Assembly (NCBI RefSeq): GCF_946886105.1
Contig: NZ_CAMPHV010000008.1
Span: forward strand, 62,001-126,000
Origin: an uncultured Pseudomonas sp.
Lineage (GTDB): Bacteria > Pseudomonadota > Gammaproteobacteria > Pseudomonadales > Pseudomonadaceae
DNA: 64,000 nt
Reading direction: 5' to 3'
Shown: positions 3,156 through 62,512 of the stretch, in pieces
Numbering within the stretch: the stretch's first letter is position 1
How the letters are laid out: every line of letters starts with the position of its first letter
Notes under the pieces: model-generated
The model's input: the letters and a program-made list of their open reading frames with translations, nothing else
The model's database searches: none
What the model was told of the DNA's origin: nothing
Position numbers and translations under genes: made by a program

Positions 3156-3267
3156 GGGATGCCTCCTGATTATTATTGTTGGCGCCGGGAGACTGCGTCC
3201 GACGTGCAACAAGTGTAAGCAGGAGGGAAAACCTATCCCATCGCCCAGATGGGTGACTGGCGATGGG

Positions 3268-3834
3268 CTATTGGCGATTCGCCGCTGGCGCCGAGGCGAT
3301 CGCCTGCTCGACCGCGGCGAGCAACGCCGGATCATCCGCCAGGGTGGTACTGGGGAAGCTGGCGAGCACCCGGCCCTGGCGGTCGACCACGTATTTGAAG
3401 AAGTTCCAGCCCGGCGCCTGACTCTGCGCCGCCAGGCCCTTGAACAGGCCGATGGCATCGGCACCGCTGACCCGCTGCGGTTCGCTCATGGCGAAGGTCA
3501 CGCCGTAATTGACATAGCAGACCTTGGCGGTTTCTTCGCTACTGCCGGCCTCTTGCTTGAAGTCGTCGGACGGCACGCCGAGCACCTCCAGGCCTTCCCC
3601 CTTGTAGCGCTGATAAAGCGCCTCCAGCCCTTTGAACTGCGGGGTGAAACCGCAGAAGCTGGCGGTATTGACCACCAGCAACGGCTTGCCGGCGAAGCGC
3701 TCGCACAGATCGATGCTGTCCTTGCTACGCAACTGGGTCAGCTCGCCCTGCAGCAGCGCTGAGCATTCATCGGCCAGCGCGGGGACGGCGATAGCGCTCA
3801 ATAACAGCGAAATGGCGAAGGCGCGCAGCAACAT
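3268..3834 (-). CDS. Periplasmic glutathione peroxidase-like thiol peroxidase
   Basis: The protein has 188 residues with an N-terminal signal peptide (about 1-21, ending ALA), so it is probably periplasmic. It has the glutathione-peroxidase fold signature: a peroxidatic Cys61 in [12 protein letters not shown], followed by the GWNFFKY segment carrying the family Trp/Asn. Such bacterial enzymes reduce hydroperoxides and often use thioredoxin-like donors rather than glutathione. The lipase gene starts 112 bp downstream on the same strand with its own ribosome site, so no operon link is obvious. Confidence 0.88.
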
Positions 3835-3905: not shown

Positions 3906-4031
3906 TTAACACACGCCTATGCCCAACTGCATAAATGCCAAGCCGCTTTGCAGCCAAGCCCACCAGATCAAGCCGAGCAAGGCTGCGCCGGCCAGCGCCA
4001 GTGCGCTATTCAACCAGTAGTGTGTGTTCAT
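3906..4031 (-). CDS. 41-residue single-span membrane protein coupled to the MFS gene
   Basis: The product starts MNTHYWLNSALALAG and is one hydrophobic helix with an LIWWAWLQ centre, ending at a Cys. Its ATG overlaps the TGA of the upstream MFS gene as ATGA, a translational-coupling layout that strongly suggests a real gene. It is too short for ordinary ORF calling. A small partner subunit of the MFS transporter is a reasonable reading; similar short proteins downstream of such transporters have been annotated as small subunits. No enzymatic motif is present. Confidence 0.7.
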   Translation of the reverse strand: MNTHYWLNSALALAGAALLGLIWWAWLQSGLAFMQLGIGVC

Positions 4032-5236
4032 GCCCCGACCTCGAGATTGCGCAGACGCGCGACCGGCTGCTCGCGCACCGGCCAGTTCAGCGCCGCGGCC
4101 ATCAGGCTGAGCAGGATCGCGATCTGCCAGACCAGTTCGTAGCTGCCCGTGCGGTCATATAAATAACCGCCCAACCAACCACCCATAAACGCCCCGAGCT
4201 GATGGAACAGGAAGACGATGCCGCCGAGCATCGACAAGTTGCGCACGCCGAACAGAGTCGCCACCGTACCGTTGGTCAAAGGCACCGTGGATAGCCACAA
4301 CAACCCCATGGCGATGCCGAACGCATAAGCGCTCCAAGCCGTCAGCGGTGTCAGCACGAACAACGTGATCACCACCGCGCGCGCCAGGTACAGCGCACTG
4401 AGCAGGCGCGGCTTGGATATCCGTCCGCCGAGCCAGCCGGCGCCATAGGTGCCGAAGATATTGAACAACCCGACCAGCGCCAACACCGTGGTGCCGACCA
4501 GCGCCGGCAAATGTTGATCGACCAGATACGCCGGCAGGTGCACGCCGATGAACACCACCTGGAAGCCACAAACGAAGAACCCCAGGCCCAGCAGCCAGAA
4601 CCCGGAATGCCCGGCGGCTTCGCGCAACGCCTCGCGCAGTGTCTGTTCCTGGCCCAGGCTCGGCAACGGCCGGTCCTTGACCATCGTCGCCAACGGCAGG
4701 ATCAGCGCGACCAGCAGAGCGAGGGCGAACAATGCCGCCGACCAGCCCAACCAACTGATCAACCCGAGGGTACCGGGCAACATGGCGAACTGACCGAAGG
4801 AGCCGGCCGCCGCGACTATGCCCATCGCCAGGCTGCGTTTTTCCACCGGCACCGCGCGGCCGACCGCGCCGAGAATCACCGAAAACGAAGTGCCGGACAG
4901 CCCCAGGCCGATCAACAAACCCGCGCTCAGCGACAGCGACCATGGCGAATCCGCCAACCCCATGGTCAGCAGGCCGAGGCCGTAGAGGATGCCGCCGAGA
5001 ATGATCGTGCGCCGCGCCCCGAAGCGATCCGCCACAGCACCGGCGAACGGCTGGGCCAGGCCCCAGATCAGGTTCTGCAGGGCGATGGCGAAAGCGAACA
5101 CCTCGCGCCCCCAACCGAATTCGGCGCTCATCGGCGGCAGAAACAAACCGAAGCCATGACGAATGCCCAACGACAGCGCCAGGATCAACGACCCGCCCAG
5201 AAGTATCCCCAGCCCGGCGCGTCCTATTGTCCTCAT
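4028..5236 (-). CDS. MFS transporter (OxlT-like branch)
   Basis: This is a 402-residue major facilitator with about 12 hydrophobic helices. The loop between helices 2 and 3 reads GAVADRFGARRT, the standard MFS motif GxxxDRxGxRR. The N-terminus (LSLGIRHGFGLFLPPMS) resembles the monocarboxylate/oxalate-formate antiporter branch, so the substrate may be a small organic acid; this is inference. A perfect palindrome overlaps the likely promoter, and a 41-codon gene overlaps the stop codon. Confidence 0.88.
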   Translation of the reverse strand: MRTIGRAGLGILLGGSLILALSLGIRHGFGLFLPPMSAEFGWGREVFAFAIALQNLIWGLAQPFAGAVADRFGARRTIILGGILYGLGLLTMGLADSPWSLSLSAGLLIGLGLSGTSFSVILGAVGRAVPVEKRSLAMGIVAAAGSFGQFAMLPGTLGLISWLGWSAALFALALLVALILPLATMVKDRPLPSLGQEQTLREALREAAGHSGFWLLGLGFFVCGFQVVFIGVHLPAYLVDQHLPALVGTTVLALVGLFNIFGTYGAGWLGGRISKPRLLSALYLARAVVITLFVLTPLTAWSAYAFGIAMGLLWLSTVPLTNGTVATLFGVRNLSMLGGIVFLFHQLGAFMGGWLGGYLYDRTGSYELVWQIAILLSLMAAALNWPVREQPVARLRNLEVGA

Positions 5237-5262
5237 GTTCCAGTCTCCAGGCTGCTCAATCT

Positions 5263-5276
5263 TGATCGAACGATCA
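5263..5276. promoter_or_regulatory. Candidate operator upstream of the MFS gene
   Basis: The sequence TGATCGAACGATCA is an inverted repeat of TGATCG around two bases, 27-40 bp upstream of the MFS start. The size and position fit a dimeric repressor site of TetR type. No local TetR gene is seen, so the regulator is unknown. Confidence 0.4.
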
Positions 5277-5325
5277 GGTCGCTAAGATTGACGCCCGGCA
5301 ACACTTAAAACAAGTCGACCATCGA

Positions 5326-6213
5326 CTAATCGAGAACCAGCGCGGAGGCCGCCGCGCGCTGCTGAAAGAAGCGCAATAGCTCTTCGCGGTAGTGACCATA
5401 AACCTGCGGCGGTAGCCAGCGCCGGTAAAGCGCCAATAGCGTCTCCGGTTGCGCGGAAATCTCACGTATGGCGTGGTCCAAATGCATGGCCATACGCGCG
5501 CCCCAGGCGTTTCGCGGGCAATAGATACCCACCTGCACCAAATGCGGACTCTCGCGCAGCGGCACGCTGACCAGTGGCTCGCTGAGACTGAAGTGTCGCG
5601 CGACCTCGGTGTAGATCAACGGGTAATCGAATACATAATCCAAACGCCCATGGCTGACCATCAGCAGCAAATTTTCGCCCGCCATACTGCCGCCCAGTGC
5701 CTGAATGCGCCCCTCGACCTGAGCCTGATGCAGCCGCTCGCGAATTTCCTCGGGATACACCCGACTCTTCGCCAAGGCACCGCGTAGATAGGTTCTGCCG
5801 AATAACCAGTCGAGGCTGACCTTGCCGTCCTCGATCAACAATTGATCGAGGGTTTGTCGACGGACCAACACATGAATGGGCGTAAAGAGCATGAGGGGCA
5901 CGAAATAGCCAACGCGGTCACGCTCCGCGCTTTGCAAATGCCCGTTGCTGCATAGGTTATCCAGCGCATCCATGTGCTGTTTGATACGACTCATGGGCAA
6001 TACCTTGTAGCGCATCTGCAACTCGGGCAATTGCGCTTCGAGCAAACGCATGGAATCGAACAGGATGCCGCCGGTCACCTGGCCATTGTGCACGTTGAAT
6101 GCACCGGGCAACGGCACCACGCCCCAGACCAACGGCTCGGCCTGTACCAGCGGCACCGCGGGCAACAAGCCGAGTGTCATGGCCAGCAGTGCGAACTTAA
6201 ATGACCTGATCAC
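5326..6213 (-). CDS. Periplasmic solute-binding-like protein (TIGR02285-type)
   Basis: The protein has 295 residues and a clear signal peptide (MIRSFKFALLAMTLGL to about AQA), followed by a type II periplasmic-binding fold like those of amino-acid binding proteins. No transporter genes are adjacent, which is usual for this family of orphan binding proteins in Pseudomonas; the ligand is unknown. The frame is open 11 codons further upstream to a TTG. The GTG at 6213 is preferred because it has an AAGG site nine bases ahead and gives a clean signal peptide. Confidence 0.8.
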   Translation of the reverse strand: MIRSFKFALLAMTLGLLPAVPLVQAEPLVWGVVPLPGAFNVHNGQVTGGILFDSMRLLEAQLPELQMRYKVLPMSRIKQHMDALDNLCSNGHLQSAERDRVGYFVPLMLFTPIHVLVRRQTLDQLLIEDGKVSLDWLFGRTYLRGALAKSRVYPEEIRERLHQAQVEGRIQALGGSMAGENLLLMVSHGRLDYVFDYPLIYTEVARHFSLSEPLVSVPLRESPHLVQVGIYCPRNAWGARMAMHLDHAIREISAQPETLLALYRRWLPPQVYGHYREELLRFFQQRAAASALVLD

Positions 6214-13786: not shown

Positions 13787-15102
13787 AGAAATTCTCGAGG
13801 CAGAAAGAGCGCGGCCACCGCCCGCGGGTCGGACGGCAGATAGAAGTGGATATAAGACGCGGTCAGCCGCCCGCTTCGGTAGACCGCCTCGGCGGTACGC
13901 CGGTAGTTCGGGCACTCGCCTTGGGCGATGGGCGCAAGCGCGCTGGTCAGCGCCGAATGGTGAAAGCTATGGCCGCGCAAACGCCCTTCCGGCAGTTCGA
14001 CTTCCTGCAAGGCCAAGGCGATCAGCCGCGGTTGCAGGGTCGCCTCGCCGCTGAGCAGGCCGAGCATCCGGCCGCTGGCGCCCTGCTGGTCGGTGAGTCG
14101 GTCGAGCAGATAGAGCATGCCGCCGCACTCGGCCAGGATCGGTTTTCCCGCGGCATGATGGGCGCGGATCGCCGTCGCCATGGCGTGATTGGCTTCGAGC
14201 TGCGCCAGGTGCAACTCGGGATAACCGCCGGGCAGGTACAGGCTGTCGACTTCGGGCAATTGGCTGTCGGCCAACGGCGAAAAGAATCGCAGCTCGGCGC
14301 CCAGCTGGCGCAAGAGATCCAGGTTCGCCTGGTAAATAAACGCGAAGGCGCTGTCGCGCGCCACGCCGATCCGCACGCCTTTAAGCAGCTGCTCAATAGC
14401 GCGAGAGTTCGGCGCGGCGAAGGCCACCGGCGGCGGCAACTCTACATCGGCGCTGGCCGCCAGGGCATCGGCGGCGGCATCCAGACGCGCATCCAGATCG
14501 CTGAGTTCCTCGGCCTGGATCAAACCGAGATGACGGCTCGGTAATTCGACCTCGGCGCTGCGTGGCAAGGCGCCGTACCAGCGGATCGACGGCGGCAACG
14601 AAGCGCGCAGAATTTCGCCGTGGCGCGTACTGCCAACGCGGTTGCCAAGCACCCCGGAGAACGGCAAGTCCGCCTGAAAGGTCGCCAAGCCATGGGCCAG
14701 GGCGCCGAACGTCTGGGCCATGGCCGAGCCATCGATCACTGCCATGATCGGCACGCCGAAACGTCGCGCCAGATCGGCCGCGGACGGCGAGCCATCGAAC
14801 AACCCCATCACCCCTTCGATCAGGATCAGCTCAGCCTCGCCCGCCGCGTCCCAGAGCAAGCGCCGGCTCTCGGCCTCGCCGACCATCCACAGATCCAGCT
14901 GATAAACAGGCGCGCCGCTGGCGCGGGCGAGGATCATCGGGTCGAGAAAATCCGGGCCGCACTTGAATACCCGCACGCGCCGCCCCTGATTCCGGTGCAG
15001 GCGCGCCAGGGCCGCGGTGACCGTGGTCTTGCCCTGGCCGGACGCCGGCGCGGCGATCAATAACGCCGGGCAGTGACGCGGAGCGGGCACGGGCTCGCTC
15101 AT
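13783..15102 (-). CDS. cobB: Cobyrinate a,c-diamide synthase
   Basis: CobB (CbiA type) amidates the a and c side chains of (hydrogeno)byrinate using glutamine. It has 439 residues. The N-terminal P-loop is APASGQGKTT, followed by FKCGPDFLDP and EGVMGLFDG. The C-terminal glutaminase domain has its Cys in LAECGGMLYLLDR and its His in the HSFHHS region. The ATG at 15102 overlaps the stop of the upstream membrane-protein gene. This is a corrin gene, not the CobB sirtuin, which is encoded separately at 21151. Confidence 0.95.
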   Translation of the reverse strand: MSEPVPAPRHCPALLIAAPASGQGKTTVTAALARLHRNQGRRVRVFKCGPDFLDPMILARASGAPVYQLDLWMVGEAESRRLLWDAAGEAELILIEGVMGLFDGSPSAADLARRFGVPIMAVIDGSAMAQTFGALAHGLATFQADLPFSGVLGNRVGSTRHGEILRASLPPSIRWYGALPRSAEVELPSRHLGLIQAEELSDLDARLDAAADALAASADVELPPPVAFAAPNSRAIEQLLKGVRIGVARDSAFAFIYQANLDLLRQLGAELRFFSPLADSQLPEVDSLYLPGGYPELHLAQLEANHAMATAIRAHHAAGKPILAECGGMLYLLDRLTDQQGASGRMLGLLSGEATLQPRLIALALQEVELPEGRLRGHSFHHSALTSALAPIAQGECPNYRRTAEAVYRSGRLTASYIHFYLPSDPRAVAALFLPREFL

Positions 15103-15671
15103 CTGCGCGCCTCGCGGCTGGGCGCCAATCGCGCCGCGCGAATGCCGCTGTACAACAATGCCGCCAGGCCGACATAGAGCGCCAAACCGCCCAGGTAACG
15201 CGGGTAGTAAATACCGATGCGCTCGGCCAGCAACTCCAGGCTCGGCTCCGGGTAACGCCCGGAGAAATACAGAAAACCGCCGCCGGAAAACAGGTAGCAG
15301 ACCAGGGCCGCGATCATTACCGTGGCCATCAGCAGCGCCAGGCTGCTCAGGTGCTCGCGATGCCAAGCGGCATACAACCGCCCGCCCAGCCACAGCGAGC
15401 CGTAGGCCGGCAGCAGCATCCAGTAAGCCGGCGACAGGCACCAGTCACTGACCCCGGCCCACTGCACCGCCGCGAAGTCGAGCAACGACGCCTCGATAAA
15501 CAGCGCCGGGAACAGCCAACGCGGCCGCAGCAGCGCACCGGCGAGGAAGAACACAGCCCAGGACGCGCTGGGCAGATTGAGCGTGGCGAAATGTTGGCCG
15601 CGGGTCATGGCCATCAGCAGCGCCAGGGCCAGGCCGATCGCCAATTGGGCGCGGGGGGATAACTTGAGCAT
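15099..15671 (-). CDS. Polytopic membrane protein of the cobalamin operon
   Basis: The protein has 190 residues with about six hydrophobic segments and no enzymatic motif. It lies between btuB and cobB, overlapping cobB by 4 bp, so it is in the B12 riboswitch regulon. In several Pseudomonas the adenosyltransferase gene cobO is near this place. The location suggests inner-membrane uptake of a corrinoid or precursor, or an accessory role for CobS/CbiB; this is inference from context only. It starts MLKLSPRAQLAIGLALAL. Confidence 0.7.
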   Translation of the reverse strand: MLKLSPRAQLAIGLALALLMAMTRGQHFATLNLPSASWAVFFLAGALLRPRWLFPALFIEASLLDFAAVQWAGVSDWCLSPAYWMLLPAYGSLWLGGRLYAAWHREHLSSLALLMATVMIAALVCYLFSGGGFLYFSGRYPEPSLELLAERIGIYYPRYLGGLALYVGLAALLYSGIRAARLAPSREARR

Positions 15672-17570: not shown

Positions 17571-17696
17571 GATAGGTTCTCCGTCGTGCCACCCGCGCGA
17601 CATAGGCTGGGATAGGCAGGCGGAGAACAGGCACGCAGGCACCGCAATTACTGCGGCGCCTACGCCAAGCAACGCCCTCCGCGATGCCATGGACTG

Positions 17697-17898
17697 CGAC
17701 AGGCCGGTCTCCGGGCTTGCGAGTGAACCCGAAGGTTCCAACCGCGCCTTCCCATGCGTGAGCACAGTGGCTGTGATGCGGTCGTTGACTCGCCTACCGT
17801 TGCGGGGGCAGCGTCGGAATAGTTGGCCTGCAGGGCACAACGCACCGACTTCCCTGTTTCACCCCTTGAACGCACAGCGTCAGGGGCACCTGTTGCAA
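17697..17898 (-). promoter_or_regulatory. Cobalamin (AdoCbl) riboswitch
   Basis: Read on the minus strand, the conserved blocks occur in order: CAGGTGCCC, GAAACAGGGAAGTCGGTG, GCTGCCCCCGCAACGG, CACTGTG with GGGAAGGCG, and the B12 box AAGCCCGGAGACCGGCC near 17703-17719. The element ends about 127 nt before the btuB start, leaving room for an expression platform. It should repress btuB and the downstream cob genes when coenzyme B12 is abundant. Confidence 0.95.
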
Positions 17899-17905
17899 GG
17901 CGCGA

Positions 17906-17934
17906 AGGGTAGAGAGTTCGGGTTTAGGCGTCAA
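17906..17934 (-). promoter_or_regulatory. Sigma70-like promoter of the cobalamin operon
   Basis: On the minus strand, TTGACG (17934-17929) and TACCCT (17911-17906) are separated by 17 bases. The predicted transcript would begin at the 5' end of the riboswitch. Confidence 0.65.
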
Positions 17935-51987: not shown

Positions 51988-52425
51988 ATGCCTTCCTTGA
52001 AACCCCTGTTCAAACTGGCCACCTTCGTCGCCCTTGGCGGCTGGCTGCTGCTCGTCTGCCTGCCCTTCTGGCAGCTTGCCGACGAAGTGGTACTGGGCAT
52101 CGCCGTGGTGCTGCTCGGGCTGATCTACAGTTGGCTGCTGATCGCCGCCATGCGCCAACGCCCCGAGCCCGGCAGCGGCAGACCGGGCTTCTTCAGCCTC
52201 AGCGGCGTACTGGCATTGCTGCGCCAACCCACAGCCGCACTGGCGGCCTGGGTGCATATCCTGGCGTTCGACCTGATGGTGGGGTTGTACATCCGCAGCG
52301 AAGGCACCATCGCCGGCATCAGCCATTGGGCGCTGCTGCCCTGCTACCTGCTGACCCTGATGTTCGGCCCCTTGGGCCTGCTGGCGTTTCTCGCGTTGCG
52401 TTGGTGGGTTGGCTTGGCGGCCTAA
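51988..52425 (+). CDS. ABA4-like membrane protein (DUF4281)
   Basis: The protein has 145 residues and four hydrophobic helices. The C-terminal half, AWVHILAFDLMVGLYIRSEG and CYLLTLMFGPLGLLAFL, matches the bacterial ABA4-like/DUF4281 family related to plant neoxanthin-synthesis proteins. The bacterial function is unknown. Its stop codon shares bases with the stop of the convergent gene (CTAA at 52422-52425). Confidence 0.75.
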   Translation: MPSLKPLFKLATFVALGGWLLLVCLPFWQLADEVVLGIAVVLLGLIYSWLLIAAMRQRPEPGSGRPGFFSLSGVLALLRQPTAALAAWVHILAFDLMVGLYIRSEGTIAGISHWALLPCYLLTLMFGPLGLLAFLALRWWVGLAA

Positions 52426-52763
52426 CGGCTGCGCTGGTATTGCTGGCTACCCTGCCCCGGCAATGTCTGCACCTCATAACCGTTGGGATACTCGATGCTC
52501 TGACGAATAGCGCCGCGGCTTTCTACCGATTGGCTGCTTGAGTGGCTTTCATAACGCCTGAGCGTACCGTCGCCCGGCAAGCGTTGGCCGCCATACAGAT
52601 TATGTTGCTCGTAGTGCTGCGAGCTGCCGATGCTGCCACTGGCACCTGGGCTGATGTAGGTTTTCGGGATGACACGAATCTCCTGTGGGGCCTGGGAGTC
52701 GGCATAAACCGGCGATACCAGCGCCACGCCGAGAATGACCAATAGGCGAACAAAAACTGTCAT
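52422..52763 (-). CDS. Exported protein of unknown function
   Basis: The protein has 113 residues: a signal peptide (about 1-21, ending VYA) followed by a Gln/Ser/Tyr-rich region with GQRLPGDGTLRRYES and GYEVQTLPGQG. I do not recognise the family. Codon use is like its chromosomal neighbours, so I place it outside the integron. The convergent neighbour shares its stop bases. Confidence 0.65.
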   Translation of the reverse strand: MTVFVRLLVILGVALVSPVYADSQAPQEIRVIPKTYISPGASGSIGSSQHYEQHNLYGGQRLPGDGTLRRYESHSSSQSVESRGAIRQSIEYPNGYEVQTLPGQGSQQYQRSR

Positions 52764-52919
52764 GGCAACCTCTGCATCATGCGATCTGGAGTGTGGCTAC
52801 CTGCTCATTGCGTAGCTGGGTGAGCGAACAGAGCAACGCGCAATACCGACACCAGCCATAGCCTATAAGGGCAAAGACTACTTGAGCACTTCGCGAAAGA
52901 ATAGCAGCTTGGCGAGCGC

Positions 52920-53249
52920 TTAAACCGGCACTGAAAGCATTAAATGAATAGGATACATGGCATACACCATCAGGCCCGTAATTAAACAGGCTGCCAGCGA
53001 AACACGCCCCAAGTAAGCCCTTAGATTGTTATTAAAGAAAGTAGCGATCAGAAAGGCGCCAATAAGCAGCGGCGAGACAAGCCAGCCAGGCCCGATGGAA
53101 AATGCCATAGCGGACCAAGCTGGAACACCGCCGTACATTGAGGCGAATACATTTTCAAATTGCCTAACAGTCACTTCCGAACAATACCAAGCGATCAAGG
53201 ATTGGGCAGCAGCAAATAGTATCGATAGAAGTACGGCTATTATTTTCAC
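52920..53249 (-). CDS. Small membrane protein of unknown function
   Basis: The protein has 109 residues with three or four hydrophobic segments (MKIIAVLLSILFAAAQSLIAW, MAFSIGPGWLVSPLLIGAFLI, ACLITGLMVYAMYPIHLML). The GC content is visibly lower than that of the genes to its left. It reads in the same direction as the integron cassettes and may be the most distal cassette, but I could not find a convincing attC after it. Confidence 0.55.
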   Translation of the reverse strand: MKIIAVLLSILFAAAQSLIAWYCSEVTVRQFENVFASMYGGVPAWSAMAFSIGPGWLVSPLLIGAFLIATFFNNNLRAYLGRVSLAACLITGLMVYAMYPIHLMLSVPV

Positions 53250-53294
53250 TTTGATTACCTAGGATTGTCTTTAAGACAAATAACAAACTACAAA

Positions 53295-53357
53295 CATCAA
53301 CAATAAAGTTAAGGGAGTGTGTCAGCGCGCCCCAGTGAACGACCGATTAGATCAAGC
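53295..53357 (-). other. Degenerate attC-like site after the GFA cassette
   Basis: The plus strand reads CATCAAC core, then GTTAAGGGAGTG, CGCGCCCCAGTGA and GATCAAGCC, aligning block by block with the clear attC at 54908 (GTTAAGGGGCGG, CCGTCCCAGTGA, GATTTGAACC). The cores are imperfect. It immediately follows the GFA stop codon. Confidence 0.5.
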
Positions 53358-53711
53358 CTAAATGGACGCACCATCGTATACCTGAAAAGGCAGCGCTGAT
53401 GAATCCATTCCCTCTATGCATCCGAGATTTATGCGATAGTGACCTGGCTTTCTCATTGTTTGGTGAAATGGATAGATCCCACACTTGCTACAAAAGTGGT
53501 GCTTTGCAATGTGGCTACCGAATTCGTAGGTTGACAGAGAGCCTGGAGTTGCAGTGATAAGCAAATCATTAGGTGCCAAAATGAATGCACTCATAATGGC
53601 ACCTTTTCGCTGGCAAATAGAACAGTTGCAGCGCAATCCGCTTTCAATGGTTGGGGCCGAGAACTCGAATTTTACTGCACCGCAATGGCAACTTCCCTTG
53701 TATTGCTGCAT
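53358..53711 (-). CDS. GFA family (glutathione-dependent formaldehyde-activating-like) protein, cassette gene
   Basis: The protein has 117 residues. The zinc-binding cysteines of the GFA/CENP-V fold are present: GSCHCGAV, LRCNCSICQRKG and HFCSKCGIYPFH. The enzymatic role is uncertain; most members are of unknown substrate. AGGAGG lies 6 bp upstream. It is flanked by attC-like sites on both sides and reads leftward with the other cassettes. GFA proteins are, as far as I recall, common integron cassette cargo. Confidence 0.82.
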   Translation of the reverse strand: MQQYKGSCHCGAVKFEFSAPTIESGLRCNCSICQRKGAIMSAFILAPNDLLITATPGSLSTYEFGSHIAKHHFCSKCGIYPFHQTMRKPGHYRINLGCIEGMDSSALPFQVYDGASI

Positions 53712-53721
53712 ATAACCTCCT

Positions 53722-53807
53722 GCGTGATCGGACAGTTTAAGGGACGCAAGCGAAGCTTGTGGGCGTTTTGGGTGAGAAAAACGAACAGCCTTGAACACTT
53801 GCCCAGC
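53722..53807 (-). other. Degenerate attC-like site
   Basis: The plus strand shows GTTTAAGGGACGC, a short AAGC-GAA-GCTT stem, GGGTGAGAAAAACGAAC and CTTGAACAC, in the order seen in the clean attC at 54908. The GTTRRRY cores are eroded (GCGTGAT). GCATAAC-like heptamers also occur further right, at 53933-53939 and 53976-53982. Confidence 0.42.
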
Positions 53808-53976
53808 TGCGCGAACGACAGAGTGGCCAGGGCTAAAAGCCCAAAACAGGCCAGATATACGAATGCAACCGCGCTGACGACAGGCTCGAAAAGCTATTCC
53901 TCACCGCTTGCGGGGAGAGTCCATATACAATTGTTATGCTGCTCAAATTTCTGATTGGTAATTTAGAATTGTTATG

Positions 53977-54372
53977 TTATGCATTTTTTGGAAGCCGAAA
54001 TTTTCCCAGTGCAGTGGAGTACCACTGGCCTAAATATTTTACCCAAATAGAGCTAAATGATGTCTTGGTTTGCTCATTATAATAAACTGAGTATTCAACT
54101 TTTATTGCTGGATTAGAACCGTATAATTCTGATTTTGGATGAAACTCCGCAATTTGAAAAGCTCCCAATTCTGCAGTTTCGATTGAAGCTAAAAAATCTG
54201 TGATTGAATCTATTGTCAGCTGAGGCTCATCGGTTCGCTCCCGCTCTCGTTTCTCGCGTATGGCCGGCAAGATAAGATCATATAGCGCGGCAGCATCCCC
54301 TGTGACTTCAGCCTGAATCTGTTCTTGAATTCGGGCTTCAATTTCTATTTTGTAATTTTCTGGTGGCTTCAT
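53977..54372 (-). CDS. Cassette gene of unknown function
   Basis: The protein has 131 residues, is AT-rich compared with the chromosome and has no signal peptide. It resembles a small NTF2-like or alpha+beta protein (DAAALYDLILPAIREKRERE, KVEYSVYYNEQTKTSFSSIWVKYLGQWYS), where the last part looks like an NTF2/SnoaL beta sheet; this is only an impression. It begins 13 bp after an attC core, as cassette genes do. Confidence 0.65.
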   Translation of the reverse strand: MKPPENYKIEIEARIQEQIQAEVTGDAAALYDLILPAIREKRERERTDEPQLTIDSITDFLASIETAELGAFQIAEFHPKSELYGSNPAIKVEYSVYYNEQTKTSFSSIWVKYLGQWYSTALGKFRLPKNA

Positions 54373-54384
54373 TTTTTTGATTAG

Positions 54385-54467
54385 GCATAACGTTGTAGGT
54401 AAGGGGCGCTGCGCGGCGCTTTATCGCGCAGCGTCCAGAGGGAGCGGCCTTGACCGCGGTGTTAGGC
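54385..54467 (-). other. Integron attC site (between cassettes)
   Basis: The 83-bp imperfect palindrome is bounded on the plus strand by GCATAAC (54385-54391) and GTTAGGC (54461-54467), i.e. GTTATGC and GCCTAAC cores in cassette orientation. The inside holds GGTAAGGGGCG, a GCTGCGCGGCG / CGCGCAGCG arm and CCTTGACC. This is the standard attC layout. Confidence 0.82.
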
Positions 54468-54485
54468 CGAGTGCTGGATTGCACG

Positions 54486-54902
54486 TTATTTCCCTGCTCT
54501 GTCCTTGATAAGCTCACGGCAACGATATGCAAGCCAGTGGTTTTTGTCAGCCAATCCTGAAAGCACTGCTTCCATCTCGTGTTCGTCGATAAACGGGTAG
54601 ACCTCCAAATGAAGGGCAATACGCAGTTTTCGGTTGTCTAGGCCCTCTCGAAGCCAGTCTTCAATGGCGCGCGTGACGCTTGCGCCATTGTCGTTGGTGC
54701 GCCACGCAAGCAGGTCGAACAGGTCACAAACTACTTCGTAACGCACAGAACGGGGAATTTCGCTATACAAACGGTCTGCGAGACCATCCTCGCCAAATTC
54801 CTCAACTAACGCGGACAAGACGTCCTCATCAAGCGATTTCCAGCCGCCCTCATCTCGACTCAGGCAAACCGTGTCGATTGCTTGCGCTACCAGTGGGTGC
54901 AT
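54486..54902 (-). CDS. Cassette gene of unknown function (helical protein)
   Basis: The protein has 138 residues, is strongly acidic and predicted mostly helical (LDEDVLSALVEEFGEDGLADRLYSEI, RAIEDWLREGLDNRKLRIALHLE). It has a HEAT-repeat or immunity-protein appearance but no recognised motif. It starts 6 bp after the attC core at 54908 and ends 19 bp before the next attC, the compact spacing of a gene cassette. Confidence 0.7.
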   Translation of the reverse strand: MHPLVAQAIDTVCLSRDEGGWKSLDEDVLSALVEEFGEDGLADRLYSEIPRSVRYEVVCDLFDLLAWRTNDNGASVTRAIEDWLREGLDNRKLRIALHLEVYPFIDEHEMEAVLSGLADKNHWLAYRCRELIKDRAGK

Positions 54903-54907
54903 GAGAG

Positions 54908-54983
54908 GCCTAACGTTTGGTTAAGGGGCGGGCTTTAGCCCGTCCCAGTGAGCGAAGCGAACGATTTGAACCAGTTGTTATGC
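54908..54983 (-). other. Integron attC site after the HEPN cassette
   Basis: A 76-bp imperfect palindrome. Plus-strand ends are GCCTAAC (54908-54914) and GTTATGC (54977-54983). Inner arms are GGTTAAGGGGCGGGC, AAGCCCG-like pairing, CCCAGTGAGCGAAGCGAACG and TTGAACCAG. This is very like attC sites of chromosomal integrons of Pseudomonas such as P. stutzeri. It overlaps the TAA stop region of the HEPN gene within 1 bp. Confidence 0.88.
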
Positions 54984-55604
54984 TTACCAAGGACTCTTGC
55001 CGATAACAAGGACGGCTTTTTCACCGACTTTTTCATCAAGTTTTTTTGCAAGAGTTTCGATGAACTGCTTAAGTGATGTAACTTTTTGCTTTGTTATTGC
55101 TTCTTTCTTGCCGTGAGCAATCTTATTTCTTGTTTCCAAGTAACCTGTTAGGCGTGACTTTACAGACTTGTTGTCACATTTCTGCCAGCTGATTGAGTCC
55201 ATGACTTCGTATATAGCTAGCCCTGAAAACATTTGATTGATGACATTTACATGCGGATTGCTGCGCGGCGGTTTGATTAGTTTTATGACAGCTGTAGGAT
55301 CGTTTGCCTTACCCTTTAGAATTACAGCTCCTGCCTCTGCATGGAGGTCATCTACGAAGCCTTGGAAATGTGCGGTTAGTAGCACAAAAGCAGCTCTATT
55401 AATTGCATCTACCTCTTTGGGTTTTCCGCGGCCAGGGTCAGTTACTAGCGCATGCATGACCGAAGATATTTTGGCGAGCTCTCCACCGGCCTTTTGAGCC
55501 GCAGACTCTGCATTATTAAATTTCGTAATGGCAGAGTGCGCCTTGATCAATTGATCGATATCTTTTAGGCGCTCATGGAGGCTGCTCAGTGCTTTAGATG
55601 TCAT
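54984..55604 (-). CDS. HEPN-domain protein, first integron cassette gene
   Basis: The protein has 206 residues, is low in GC and rich in Lys. The motif ETRNKIAHGKK (near residue 168) is the Rx4-6H signature of HEPN domains, here in the RiboL-PSP/MAE-like type; an upstream helix pair (FVLLTAHFQGFVDDLHAEAG) matches their N-terminal core. HEPN proteins are often RNases in toxin-antitoxin or phage defence; the RNase activity here is inference. It occupies the attI-proximal position, where a cassette is expressed most. Confidence 0.75.
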   Translation of the reverse strand: MTSKALSSLHERLKDIDQLIKAHSAITKFNNAESAAQKAGGELAKISSVMHALVTDPGRGKPKEVDAINRAAFVLLTAHFQGFVDDLHAEAGAVILKGKANDPTAVIKLIKPPRSNPHVNVINQMFSGLAIYEVMDSISWQKCDNKSVKSRLTGYLETRNKIAHGKKEAITKQKVTSLKQFIETLAKKLDEKVGEKAVLVIGKSPW

Positions 55605-55617
55605 CGGATTTCCTTAT

Positions 55618-55654
55618 GCATAACTATAAATATAGACACCAATTGGTGCATAAC
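55618..55654 (-). other. attI-like recombination region
   Basis: Two GCATAAC cores (55618-55624 and 55648-55654; GTTATGC in cassette orientation) lie 30 bp apart, enclosing the palindrome CACCAATTGGTG. The one at 55618 is the junction with the first cassette. The region to 55756 ahead of the intI-like stub fits attI, with cassettes leftward and integrase rightward. Confidence 0.55.
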
Positions 55655-55756
55655 CTGCCGAACGGGACTGGTGGATAACATTCCTTGTCCTTTCTGGCGA
55701 GCGCTCTAGCCTGGGCCTTGCAGCGGCCGAATGACCCTATAAGGGAGTTATACACC

Positions 55757-55861
55757 ATGGACGGAAAGCCCCGGTTGCTCGCGCAGATGCGCGAGCAGAT
55801 TCGTCCGAACACTACTCTATTCATGCCGAATGCGTCTATTGAGAATGGGGAATGGCCTTAA
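55757..55861 (+). pseudogene. 5' remnant of an integron integrase gene (intI)
   Basis: A 34-codon ORF with GGGAG ahead of its ATG starts MDGKPRLLAQMREQIR, which resembles the N-terminal arm of tyrosine recombinases of the IntI class (K..LLDQ.RE.IR..HYS..TE). The resemblance stops after about 16 residues and the next sequence (PNTTLFMPN) is unrelated, so the gene is truncated. It faces away from the cassettes with attI between, the canonical intI position. No catalytic residues remain. Confidence 0.55.
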
Positions 55862-56103
55862 CTGCACAGCCCTGCATATGCAGGCTGGATAGGCCGACTG
55901 GAAGATCTATATTCAAGGCCACAGGCTTTCAAGCGAAGCCGGCTGGGTGGCTGTGTCTAGGGGGTAGAAGATTCGAGGCTAATCGCGGTCTTCTGCTGGG
56001 CCAGCTGCAAACATAGGCAGCGTGCATTTCTTTGATAAGCCTTTGTCCCGCATAGCGCTGTACGGAAATGTGTACGATTCGCGCTGCTGATCAGCCTTCA
56101 AAG
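55862..56103. other. Non-coding scar region between intI remnant and carbonic anhydrase
   Basis: About 240 bp with no ORF that I recognise; a palindrome CTGCATATGCAG is at the left. It is presumably the filler left after loss of the integrase body. Confidence 0.4.
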
Positions 56104-56135
56104 TAAAAGGGGCCGTTATAAACGGCCCCCTTTTA
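56104..56135. terminator. Bidirectional terminator after the carbonic anhydrase gene
   Basis: AAAAGGGGCCGTT and AACGGCCCCCTTTT form a long stem with A and T tracts on both sides, 17 bp downstream of the carbonic anhydrase stop. It would insulate that gene from the integron region. Confidence 0.9.
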
Positions 56136-56151
56136 CTCAGCTTCGAGCCGA

Positions 56152-56880
56152 TTATTCCAACACAGGACGTGCGTTAACAGCCTGTACGGGGCGGTTGTTG
56201 TGATGATGAATCACATGCAGGAACTGATCTATTTGTTCTTTGGATGCGGAGATCGGTTGTTTCATTACCAGCCAGCGCACGCCTTCAGAGCAAGGCGGTG
56301 TGGTCAGCGAACCATTGAAGCGGTAGTAGTCGCGCTTAGCAGGCAGGATTTCCAGGGGGGAGATATCTGACGACAGCGCTACTTTTTCGCCCTTCTTCGG
56401 CATTTGCGCCCAGGCTTTTGCAAGTGCCTTGTTTGCCTCTCCTTCGGTAACCATCACGGCGACTACGGCCAGGTTGCCATTCTTATCGGCATGGACGAGA
56501 TGCCCTTCCATGGGATAGGACTTGCCATGTATCTGATTTTCGCTCGGCACATGGAAGTGGAATTGTTTCAATTCGAATTCGATGTCATCGACGGTGATGG
56601 TGCTGCCCGGGGTAGCGTTTACCTGAACGGTGTGGCCGTTATTGAGAATCTCCGAACTGCCAGCCTTGTAGTTGAAAACAATGGGCTTCAGTTTGGCATC
56701 GATAAAGCCAGTCAAGTTGATCGGCGACTGATTGCTCCCGGCACATGAGCTGTACTCGGGGCTGAGTTTTGCCCAGTTATCGGGCCCTGCGTCGCCAGTG
56801 TAGTCCCAAGCGGCGCCATCACTGGAAAATGCGAAACTTGAAAACAACAACATACCGGCTGCAATCAATGCTCTTTTCAT
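56152..56880 (-). CDS. Periplasmic alpha-carbonic anhydrase
   Basis: The protein has 242 residues: a signal peptide (about 1-19), then the alpha-CA fold. Zinc ligands are the two His of QFHFHVPSENQ and the His in MEGHLVHAD; other conserved parts are NQSPINL and GSLTTPPCSEGVRW. It interconverts CO2 and bicarbonate in the periplasm. The two cysteines (SSCAGS and PPCSEG) fit the usual disulphide. The adjacent two-component system may control it, which is inference from position. Confidence 0.95.
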   Translation of the reverse strand: MKRALIAAGMLLFSSFAFSSDGAAWDYTGDAGPDNWAKLSPEYSSCAGSNQSPINLTGFIDAKLKPIVFNYKAGSSEILNNGHTVQVNATPGSTITVDDIEFELKQFHFHVPSENQIHGKSYPMEGHLVHADKNGNLAVVAVMVTEGEANKALAKAWAQMPKKGEKVALSSDISPLEILPAKRDYYRFNGSLTTPPCSEGVRWLVMKQPISASKEQIDQFLHVIHHHNNRPVQAVNARPVLE

Positions 56881-56946
56881 GGTTCTACCTCGTGAATGCC
56901 TTATCGACGGAAGCGGCACGATAGAAGGACGGGCGTTAAGAACACG

Positions 56947-58197
56947 TTAAGAATCGCGCACTATCGGAAACGTCAGGACGAAGCGAGTGCCCCCTGCTTG
57001 CGGAATTTCCAGGCGTACGTCCCAGCCGACATGGTCGACCACACGTTTGACGATCGACAGGCCCAGGCCAGTGCCTTCGTGTGCCGGCAAGTCGTCGCCG
57101 TGGACAAATCGTTCGAACAGCCGCTCGCGCACCTTCTGGGGAATGCCCGAGCCAGTGTCTTCAATCACCAACCGACCAGCAGCGAGCTGAACCAGGACCT
57201 GGCCCTGCTCGGTGTGTCGACAGGCATTGCGCAGCAGATTGCCGATCACGATGCCAGCCAGCTCGGGCCGCACATGGACCGAGACCTCCTCGCTCCAATC
57301 CAATCTGCATTCGACCGGTTTGCCGTGCAACAGAGGCCGGCAGCGCTCGATTTCCGACTTGATGATGCTGTTGAGAACGATGCGTGGCGCATCCAGAGAT
57401 TCGGGAACACGCGCAAGCAGGAGCAATGCACTGACCCCTTGCGCCGCTTCGGCCGCGACGCGCCGGATGCGTTCCGCCGTGGCCAGTTGTGCCGGGCGGT
57501 CGGCCAGCTGCGCGGTCAGTACCTCGGCTGCGCCTAACATGATGGTCAAGGGCGTGCGTAGCTCATGGCTGACATCGCCTGTGAACAGTCGCTCGCGCTG
57601 CAAAAACTGTTGGAGTTCGTCGGTGCGCTTGGCGAAGGCGCGCGCCAAGATACCGATTTCGTCTTGCGCGGAAAGGGAAGGCAATTCAGTCGGCCCGGCG
57701 TTGCGACCGACCGCTTCGGCAAGCGCCGCTACCGGGGCGATTATCCGCTTAGCGCACACTACCCCGAGTACAGCGGCGAGCAGCAGACTGACGGCAAAGC
57801 CGATTGCCAGAGACAGGAGAATCACCAGTTCCGTGTGCTCGAGTTCGTCGACCTCCTGCACCACCGCGTAGCGGCTGGAGCCGTGATCGCGTAGCAGCAC
57901 ATGCACGTGTCGATTGCCGAGCCCCACTTCATGGGAACCGGCGGGTAGCTGGCGCAACTCGGCGGGAATCCTGTCGTCGATCATGAAGCGTATGTCCGGC
58001 GGCGCATCCGGCATGCGCCCACCCGGCTGGAGTTCGATCAACCTGTCCGCCATCTTGGACAAGCGCGCATCGATTACCTGCTCTTCGATGACCTCCACCG
58101 AAATATAGGAAACCAGGCTGAAGGCGCCGGCCACTATGACCGCCAACAGAATATAGGTGAGCGAAATACTCTGTTTGAGCGAAAGTCTAGGTTTCAC
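56947..58197 (-). CDS. Sensor histidine kinase (OmpR-partner type)
   Basis: The protein has 416 residues. One span is at about residues 14-34, then a periplasmic region of about 100 residues, a second span (about 127-150), HAMP, HisKA with VSHELRTPLTIMLG, and HATPase with NLLRNACRHTEQG, EDTGSGIP and GTGLGLSIVKRV. It pairs with the response regulator encoded upstream, whose end it overlaps by 11 bp. The carbonic anhydrase gene lies 66 bp downstream on the same strand. Confidence 0.92.
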   Translation of the reverse strand: MKPRLSLKQSISLTYILLAVIVAGAFSLVSYISVEVIEEQVIDARLSKMADRLIELQPGGRMPDAPPDIRFMIDDRIPAELRQLPAGSHEVGLGNRHVHVLLRDHGSSRYAVVQEVDELEHTELVILLSLAIGFAVSLLLAAVLGVVCAKRIIAPVAALAEAVGRNAGPTELPSLSAQDEIGILARAFAKRTDELQQFLQRERLFTGDVSHELRTPLTIMLGAAEVLTAQLADRPAQLATAERIRRVAAEAAQGVSALLLLARVPESLDAPRIVLNSIIKSEIERCRPLLHGKPVECRLDWSEEVSVHVRPELAGIVIGNLLRNACRHTEQGQVLVQLAAGRLVIEDTGSGIPQKVRERLFERFVHGDDLPAHEGTGLGLSIVKRVVDHVGWDVRLEIPQAGGTRFVLTFPIVRDS

Positions 58198-58885
58198 CGG
58201 GTGCCGCCAGTCGATAGCCGGTGCCCGGCAGGGTCAGCAGCATGGGATAGGGAAACGGCTTGTCGAGCACCTGACGCAAGGTATGGATATGGGTACGCAA
58301 GGCATCGCTATCCGGCGGGCTATCGCCCCAAACCTCACGCTCGACCGCTTCACGCGTCATCAGTGTCGGTGCGGCACGCATCAGCGCGGTGAGTATCTTG
58401 TAACCCGTCGGCGTCAGGTCGAGCAACTGCCCGGCACGTGTCACCCGGCCGGTGCCCGCGTCCAGCCGCAGCTCGCCGAAGCTCAGCACCGATTGCACAT
58501 GCTCGTTGCGCGAGCGGCGCACTAGAGCCTTCAGGCGCGCATCCAACTCGGGGAGGGAATAGGGCTTGACCAGGTAATCGTCGGCGCCGACCTCGAAACC
58601 CGTCAATTTGTCGTGTTCCGTATCGCGCGCGGTCAACATCAGGATCGGCGTCGCCAGCCGATATTCCTGGCGGAGCGTTCGGCATACCTCCACGCCATCC
58701 ATGCCCGGCAACGACAGATCGAGAATGATCGCGTCGTGAAAGGCAGCCGTTGCGCGGGCCACACCGGCATTGCCATTGCGCACCACATCCAGCGTATAGC
58801 CGAGTGGTTCCAGATATCCGAAGAGGTTCGCGATGATATCCGGGTTGTCCTCGACGATCAGCACATGCATCAGTTTCCCGTCCAT
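58187..58885 (-). CDS. OmpR-family response regulator
   Basis: The protein has up to 232 residues. Receiver domain: acidic pair in LIVEDNPD, phosphoacceptor Asp in ILDLSLPGMDG, Thr/Ser in MLTARD and Lys in LVKPYSLPEL. The C-terminal winged helix (FGELRLDAGTGRV, LTPTGYKILTALM, SDALRTHIHTLRQVL) is of OmpR/QseB type. The ATG at 58870 (MHVLIVEDN) has GGACGGG at good spacing and may be the true start rather than 58885, where the purine site is too close. Confidence 0.92.
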   Translation of the reverse strand: MDGKLMHVLIVEDNPDIIANLFGYLEPLGYTLDVVRNGNAGVARATAAFHDAIILDLSLPGMDGVEVCRTLRQEYRLATPILMLTARDTEHDKLTGFEVGADDYLVKPYSLPELDARLKALVRRSRNEHVQSVLSFGELRLDAGTGRVTRAGQLLDLTPTGYKILTALMRAAPTLMTREAVEREVWGDSPPDSDALRTHIHTLRQVLDKPFPYPMLLTLPGTGYRLAAPGET

Positions 58886-59347
58886 CTTCCTATACCGTAC
58901 TCGGCCTGACTGCTATGAGGGGAATGCATGATTTTGGCTCATTATCATGCGGATCTGCCAGGCAAGCCCCTGCCCTTTCCATTCAGCAGTTCGGCTATTT
59001 GAGAACCATGACAGGAAAACAATGATCGTCCGTTTAATTGTTCGGCGTCCATCTGGGCGCCTTTTTAGCTAACTCATTGTTGTGAGTGCCAAAAAAAACC
59101 AGTTATTCAACCACTTCCGAGCCCGCCGGTAGGGGGCACCCTACCGACATCATCATTAGGCTTACTTAAATTCAGTATTCCCCGATAGGCACTGTGTCTT
59201 GGCACCTTCATCATAAGCCACTGTTTCGACATTACTGATTCCGAATACGGAAAAGCTAAGCAGTGTCGCTAACGGGTTGATTCACTCGAATGGCTTGGAT
59301 GTCGGCTCATGGCTTTTTCTTGGGATAACGAGTGACTCCCCCGGGCA
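58886..59347. other. Intergenic region with two hairpins
   Basis: About 460 bp of lower GC. A terminator-like stem GGCGTCC / GGGCGCC followed by TTTTT is at 59044-59066 on the plus strand, and a perfect stem CGGTAGGG-GGCA-CCCTACCG is at 59127-59146. No real gene is seen; the plus-strand terminator has no obvious gene to serve, which suggests lost sequence. Confidence 0.5.
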
Positions 59348-62436: not shown

Positions 62437-62512
62437 TGGTGCCGGAGATAGGAATCGAACCTACGACCTTCGCGTTACGAGTGCGCTGCTCTACCGACTG
62501 AGCTACACCGGC
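62437..62512 (-). tRNA. tRNA-Thr (anticodon CGT)
   Basis: On the minus strand a 76-nt cloverleaf begins GCCGGTGTAGCTCAGTCGG and ends TCCGGCACCA with encoded CCA. The anticodon loop is CTCGTAA, giving CGT, and the T-arm has GGTTCGATTCC. It is close to E. coli thrW. The acceptor stem GCCGG(T)G / (A)TCCGGC pairs. Its 3' end faces the truncated response regulator. Confidence 0.96.

Follow-up and report, generated by a model that had tools for sequence, protein, structure and literature searches.

The locus described here, a series of gene cassettes adjoining the stub of an integron integrase gene (intI), is very probably a decayed sedentary chromosomal integron in which the cassette array has become frozen. 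It lies in a 64,000-nt stretch (the window) from an uncultured Pseudomonas sp., which corresponds to positions 62,001–126,000 of the forward strand of contig NZ_CAMPHV010000008.1 (assembly GCF_946886105.1). Four leftward (minus-strand) open reading frames (ORFs) encoding 206, 138, 131, and 117 aa were listed within 53295–55861, and the original prediction of four low-GC genes sharing one orientation was right as regards their coordinates, orientation, and layout: the G+C content of 52764–55660 is 46.9%, as compared with 61.7% window-wide. The first, attI-proximal gene (54984–55604, minus strand) encodes the 206-aa protein, which carries a RiboL-PSP-HEPN domain (Pfam PF18735, E = 4.3e-13; 50 bits, the cut-off being 28.4) and has 102 homologues. 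The three other genes, all on the minus strand, encode a family-less 138-aa protein (54486–54902) with 34 homologues, up to 93% identical; a family-less 131-aa protein (53977–54372), for which 5 proteins were found in the database, one being the protein itself and the remainder coming from contigs no longer than about 2.1 kb; and a 117-aa protein of the GFA family (53358–53711; Pfam PF04828, E = 2.3e-16). A 109-aa ORF (52920–53249, minus strand), which is an open frame in low-G+C DNA and possibly the fifth and last cassette gene, sits to the left of the range originally described. No Pfam, NCBIfam, PADLOC, or PHROG family matched the 109-, 131-, and 138-aa proteins above its cut-off, and no above-chance matches were obtained in the Rfam and promoter/terminator scans of the array. 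Elsewhere in the window, at 17685–17908, a cobalamin riboswitch was identified with Rfam (RF00174, 104.7 bits).

The cassettes are separated by attC sites, two of which had been called clear and two eroded. A covariance model was built by searching with the stretch 54908–54983 (attC2) by BLAST in 20 intI loci fetched from other genomes: 82 distinct look-alikes, counted after short, end-cut, and identical matches had been dropped, were spread over 15 of these loci, and 60 of them, hand-picked to thin out near-duplicates, were aligned. The only full-length matches to this model in the window, at E-values up to 10, were the two sites named in the prediction, although the model also lists a 13.4-bit reverse-strand match inside 54908–54983. 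The first of these two sites, attC2, is an intact Pseudomonas-type site with the core boxes GCCTAAC and GTTATGC (100.8 bits, E = 3.5e-26 over the 64 kb), and the second, attC1 (54385–54467), is likewise intact, with the core boxes GCATAAC and GTTAGGC (30.6 bits, E = 5.1e-6 over the same length). In a plasmid collection, attC2 was matched in 81 records, with an identity of 95–99% in 54 of them among the matches listed; in the sole record checked with its annotation (L082, 87.7% identical), the match is located between ereA and blaSIM-2 in a class 1 integron. The score of attC1 is the more independent of the two, since this site had no BLAST match in the plasmid collection.

The eroded sites were scored with the model filters off on 52764–56151 (about 3.4 kb), and they were also aligned directly with the attC consensus, taking the better strand and using 1000 dinucleotide shuffles as the null. 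The site attC4 (53301–53363), which is located 3′ of the GFA cassette, has lost its core boxes and has weak support from the model (8.0 bits, E = 0.85 in the 3.4-kb search). The stretch containing it (53285–53370) nevertheless aligns with a score of 38, its best part being 53308–53351, and this score was reached by none of the 1000 shuffles; the corresponding values obtained for the attC1 stretch (54380–54470) were 39 and, again, 0 of 1000. The inner part of the remaining site, attC3, gave only 4.3 bits in the same model search (E = 9.8 at 53727–53807).

The DNA next to this inner part contains a feature absent from the original description, namely the remnant of an IS1111-attC-type insertion sequence (IS) of the IS110 family (53791–53933, plus strand), in which the right end survives together with a portion of the 3′ noncoding region. 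This segment, which extends to 53942 in the longest alignment, is 84–86% identical to DNA in four loci (L072, L073, L074, and L082), where the counterparts follow IS110-family transposase genes at a distance of about 120 bases. intI1 is visible in two of these loci (L072 and L082), qacE-delta1 and sul1 accompany the cassettes of L073, and L074 corresponds to ISPa21, with a dndB gene next to it. The remnant was matched at 80–90% identity in 51 plasmid records, and many of the sampled chromosomes also carry the sequence, at up to 88%, among the matches listed. No transposase gene was found on searching the window with two IS1111-attC-type transposases (best match E = 0.54), and probes from the left end of the IS matched only a short inverted repeat inside the right end (53909–53929). 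Of the transposase gene, the two ends, and the insertion into an attC that characterize a full IS1111-attC element, what is present here amounts to a remnant only, and without its transposase and its left end it should be immobile.

Directly after the right end of the IS stands the core box GTTATGC (53933–53939), which would be the surviving core of attC3, and the junction formed by the IS end followed by AATTGTTA... takes the same form in L072, L073, and L082 and is absent in L074. On the other side of the remnant, the inner part of the site (53727–53796) shows two putative arms, read by eye: GTTTAAGG at 53735–53742 and CCTTGAAC at 53789–53796. The region from about 53727 to 53939 is therefore read as a putative attC interrupted by the IS1111-attC-type remnant, mainly because the half-site adjoins the remnant of an attC-targeting IS. 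The motif TTGAAC at 53791 is common to the attC arm and the IS, and a deletion between short repeats is therefore a plausible but unproven origin of the remnant. The array thus has two intact attC sites, one site that is eroded but real, and one half-site that depends on other evidence: of the two eroded sites originally proposed, the first was upheld by the alignment, and the second holds only as an IS-interrupted site.

At the right-hand end of the array, the region 55500–56300 was compared at the DNA level with 19 intI genes and their upstream DNA (one of the 20 fetched loci, L117, was dropped as it had no long enough intI frame). Ten of the 19 loci match through attI and seven at the start of intI only. 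The best match, in G452 (L131), is 82.5% identical over 234 columns (55621–55849). The long alignments begin at 55618 or 55621 in eight of the ten cases, the exceptions being L130 (55610) and L116 (55632), and hence at the attI/cassette junction core GCATAAC (55618–55624), which is where they would be expected to start if the cassette had been inserted there by IntI. The attI and the region upstream of intI occupy 55621–55756, a part of the 55621–55849 segment which is matched at 82% in G452, G765, and G611. The intI pseudogene follows on the plus strand (55757–55849) and comprises approximately the first 31 codons: the translation of 55757–55804, MDGKPRLLAQMREQIR, resembles the N-termini of IntI proteins, and a frameshift follows, the homology picking up in another frame that contains a stop and breaking off at 55849 or 55852, where the gene is truncated. 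A full intI has some 320 codons, of which about 290 are absent here. When the IntI proteins were used as queries, 17 of the 19 matched 55600–55900 at E-values up to 0.1 (13 of them at 0.001), and none matched elsewhere in the window at E-values up to 0.1; a complete divergent intI is therefore absent from the array within the 64 kb.

These data bear out the attI-like region, the intI-like start, and the lack of a working integrase that had been proposed. In the case of the divergent ORF running to 55861, the first part is indeed the start of intI, and what remains past about 55849 is not recognizably intI. A 17-base stretch with the palindrome CCTGCATATGCAGG was also observed at 55868–55884; it recurs in L113, some 80 bases downstream of intI, and may represent what is left of the distal flank of the deleted gene.

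The occurrence of attC sites between the cassette genes and of an attI at the proximal end of the array is what is expected of an integron, and judging from its sequence the array would no longer be usable for recombination by IntI in cis. Since their core boxes are intact, the HEPN and 138-aa cassettes could be excised by IntI in trans, and are possibly still mobilizable in this way. The present state of the locus, with at least two attC sites and no complete integrase nearby, fits the definition of a CALIN (cluster of attC sites lacking integron integrases), on the basis of our own covariance model. This label describes a state and not an origin: the attI and the intI stub have been kept, which makes the locus a decayed platform and not a detached cassette cluster. 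As to the relic of the CALIN type or In0-like platform originally proposed, decayed integron and CALIN in the usual sense are both apt, and the In0 label was rejected, as cassettes are present and intI is incomplete; In0 is the term applied to integrases without cassettes in the relevant passages of a study on Xanthomonas (PMC12444791).

The locus was then compared with that of relatives carrying the neighboring gene encoding an ABA4-like protein, as had been recommended. At the order level, a sample of 390 genomes gave matches to this protein in 20 (E = 0.001); in a genus-level group, the protein was matched in 7 of 149 genomes (E = 0.001) and 11 of 398 (E = 1e-50), the last two samples being drawn from the same group. 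Stretches of 6–16 kb from all 11 positive genomes were compared; L081 (G406), which gave a weaker match and has only the ABA4-like gene of the locus, was left out of the counts. Nine of the 11 keep the order SelR (msrB), PMSR (msrA), ABA4-like gene, and 113-aa gene, with a CvfB-like S1-domain gene beyond, either directly or past other genes, and the remaining two (L080 and L177) have only the ABA4-like gene in common with the window. No intI (tblastn, E = 1e-10), no DNA match to the array (E = 1e-3), and no attC match (covariance model, E = 1 or better) were obtained in the 11 stretches, and a full integron at the same locus, as might have been hoped for, was not found in any of these relatives. 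Since the nine syntenic relatives lack intI and attC in the fetched stretches, the array can be said to be accessory at this locus. Of the two outcomes that had been named as refuting the prediction, a lack of model matches at the two clear sites and synteny showing the genes to be ordinary core genes, neither was observed. It should be noted that the intI locus L166 also gave zero attC matches, so that some arrays escape the model. In one relative (G500, L075), the S1-domain gene is partly duplicated (4856–5419 and 14421–15263) around a stretch of about 9 kb in which transposase and glycosyltransferase-like genes were recognized by eye, corresponding to another insertion at the same place.

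The array DNA (52764–56151) was also searched in the 398 genomes, scoring two candidates per genome, and was matched in 131 of them. Ranked from the best downward, the matches listed involved attC, the IS, the attI-intI region, the HEPN gene (in G711), and the GFA gene (in G452); the longest extended over 647 bases, and none among those listed covered the whole array.

The alternative that survives best is that the platform arrived in a larger mobile island, extending from the 113-aa gene (52422–52763) to a tRNA-Thr gene (62437–62512), and decayed later. This we consider unlikely. Such an island would include a module lying outside the integron (56107–58912, minus strand), in which an alpha-carbonic anhydrase, a sensor kinase, and a response regulator were identified from their family matches. 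The DNA of this module is 80–82% identical to that of Halomonas heilongjiangensis and two Litchfieldella species, and 77% identical to that of Marinobacter iranensis and Billgrantia bachuensis; the similarity to the Halomonas and Litchfieldella loci speaks for an island, as does the failure to find either the module or the array in the stretches fetched from the syntenic relatives. A tRNA-Thr-like match is moreover present at the same place in several relatives. Against this, a duplicated tRNA end, which would point to an island, did not appear among the matches listed for the window, the other long ORF encodes the sensor kinase, no search aimed at an island integrase having been made, and the module occurs in none of the fetched intI loci (3–11 kb each). 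An attempt to trace the locus in other genomes through the carbonic anhydrase gene failed because this gene is itself mobile: the genomes reached in this way, those of Marinobacter and Halomonas among them, all lack the locus. As regards the tRNA-Thr (CGT) gene, same-locus matches of 93–97% were observed in L174, L175, L173, and L076; the match in L075 is weaker, and that in L077 only partial. ARAGORN found no tRNA in L075–L079, and some of the relatives' copies may be degraded.

It is much less probable that the locus is a CALIN born away from any platform, IntI having inserted cassettes at a secondary chromosomal site. The absence of an intact intI within the window is compatible with such an origin, as is the position of intI in the relatives: in nine of the 11 the gene is located elsewhere in the genome, either on a different contig or at a distance of 1.8 Mb or more, and in G575 and G644 nothing was matched at E = 1e-40. 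For Xanthomonas, parts of PMC12444791 also mention CALINs at several loci. What decides against this origin is that the attI and the start of intI are collinear with the array over 229 bases, and an insertion at a secondary site would not bring these along. Lastly, the idea that ordinary host genes are separated by chance palindromes, such as the repetitive extragenic palindromic (REP)-like repeats present between genes in the window and in the relatives, was rejected as next to impossible in view of the 100.8-bit model match, the likeness of attC2 to attC sites from intI arrays, the homology of the attI-intI region, and the absence of the cassette genes from the fetched stretches of all nine syntenic relatives.

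Several points weigh against the interpretation of the locus as a decayed sedentary integron. The score of attC2 is not independent, as that very site served as the BLAST query with which the training set of the model was gathered. The score of 25 obtained for the attC3 half-site (53712–53800) was reached by 52 of the 1000 shuffles and is not significant on its own, and no attC was detected 3′ of the leftmost ORF (52764–52920; score 19, reached by 349 of 1000 shuffles), which leaves this ORF without a site. The single-strand fold of attC2 is not better than that of the shuffles (z = -0.92 and -1.74 on the minus and plus strands, respectively), and that of attC4 (53300–53365) has been lost (z = +2.11 on the minus strand), as 200 of 200 shuffles fold as well. 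The values obtained for attC1 (54385–54467; z = -2.61 minus, -1.52 plus) and attC3 (53712–53800; z = -0.22, minus strand) complete this picture, and the folds are weak evidence at best for attC sites. Two of the 19 intI loci (L124 and L125) have no DNA in common with the stub. The host genome may carry a working second intI elsewhere, the search for intI having covered the 64-kb window. Lastly, the evidence of selection on the HEPN gene given below comes from one gene pair only, and the decay steps have been put in order by inference.

If the locus is indeed a decayed sedentary integron, its history might be as follows. IntI would have captured the cassettes singly at attI, that of the HEPN gene being the last. 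An IS1111-attC element would then have inserted at the core end of the attC of the third cassette, and a later deletion, perhaps from the TTGAAC of the attC arm to the TTGAAC inside the IS, would have removed the left end of the IS and its transposase gene. A separate deletion would have taken most of intI, which would have put an end to any reshuffling of the cassettes in cis. Among the attC sites, the older ones would be decaying, with selection keeping at least the HEPN gene.

This gene has a close relative in the Pseudomonas-type chromosome of G711, with 197 of the 206 residues identical, a nonsynonymous substitution rate (dN) of 0.019, a synonymous rate (dS) of 0.52, and hence a dN/dS ratio of about 0.04. 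No attC match to the covariance model was found in the 8 kb surrounding the G711 gene. On either side of this gene (L163, 3338–3958) lies one of a pair of similar direct repeats, each about 95 bases long (3225–3318 and 4025–4121; local alignment score 76), which were possibly left by another mobile unit. The GFA gene likewise has 75% identical DNA in G452 (L164), where no attC match was found in the 6.5 kb fetched. The HEPN protein contains an R-x4-H motif in the form RNKIAH, and we take R-x4-H (R-x4-6-H) to be the motif of HEPN RNases, so that the domain and the motif both assign the predicted product to the HEPN RNase type. Its matches in PADLOC are weak ones at the HEPN level alone, the best having an E-value of 0.013. 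That the gene is a single-gene phage-defence or toxin unit of the HEPN-RNase type, which circulates as a cassette, occurs also in the G711 chromosome without a detected attC, and has been stabilized here by the loss of intI, is a tentative proposal which we regard as rather doubtful.

In its attC sequence type, which is presumably that of Pseudomonas stutzeri, and in its attI-intI layout, the array resembles those fetched here from genomes of one genus-level group. It differs from the chromosomal integrons of the P. stutzeri type in that about 31 codons of intI are left and just two attC sites are intact. The remnant has the same 3′ noncoding region, right end, and junction with the attC core as the IS1111-attC elements ISPa21 and ISPa62. 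The related ISKpn4 and ISPst6 are described, in part of PMC11187229, as targeting attC by means of a seekRNA whose coding sequence lies downstream of the transposase gene; unlike all four of these elements, the copy in the window lacks both the transposase gene and the left end.

Inactivated integrons in which intI was lost via a frameshift, a stop, or a large deletion and the cassette arrays are stable are reported for Xanthomonas in sections of PMC12444791. The host and the locus differ from those studied here (ilvD in Xanthomonas), and the likeness lies in the loss of intI and the stability of the array. According to a portion of a genome survey (PMC2426708), about one third of the intI genes are pseudogenes. 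As compared with such pseudogenes or "pseudo-integrons," most of intI has been deleted here, and in addition an IS remnant has damaged one attC. Decayed intI genes and intI-less arrays are thus already known, as far as these portions of the two studies go (PMC2426708; PMC12444791), and the present locus is a further example of them.

What the locus provides is a clean snapshot of a chromosomal integron in the process of dying: the integrase gene is mostly deleted, the attC sites are decaying singly, an attC-targeting IS has been cut down to its putative RNA-coding end, and selection has apparently retained one cassette gene. Should the HEPN cassette not be a defence gene, this would be one more case of a common fate of integrons; if it is one, the locus would add to the view that integron cassettes carry phage defence.

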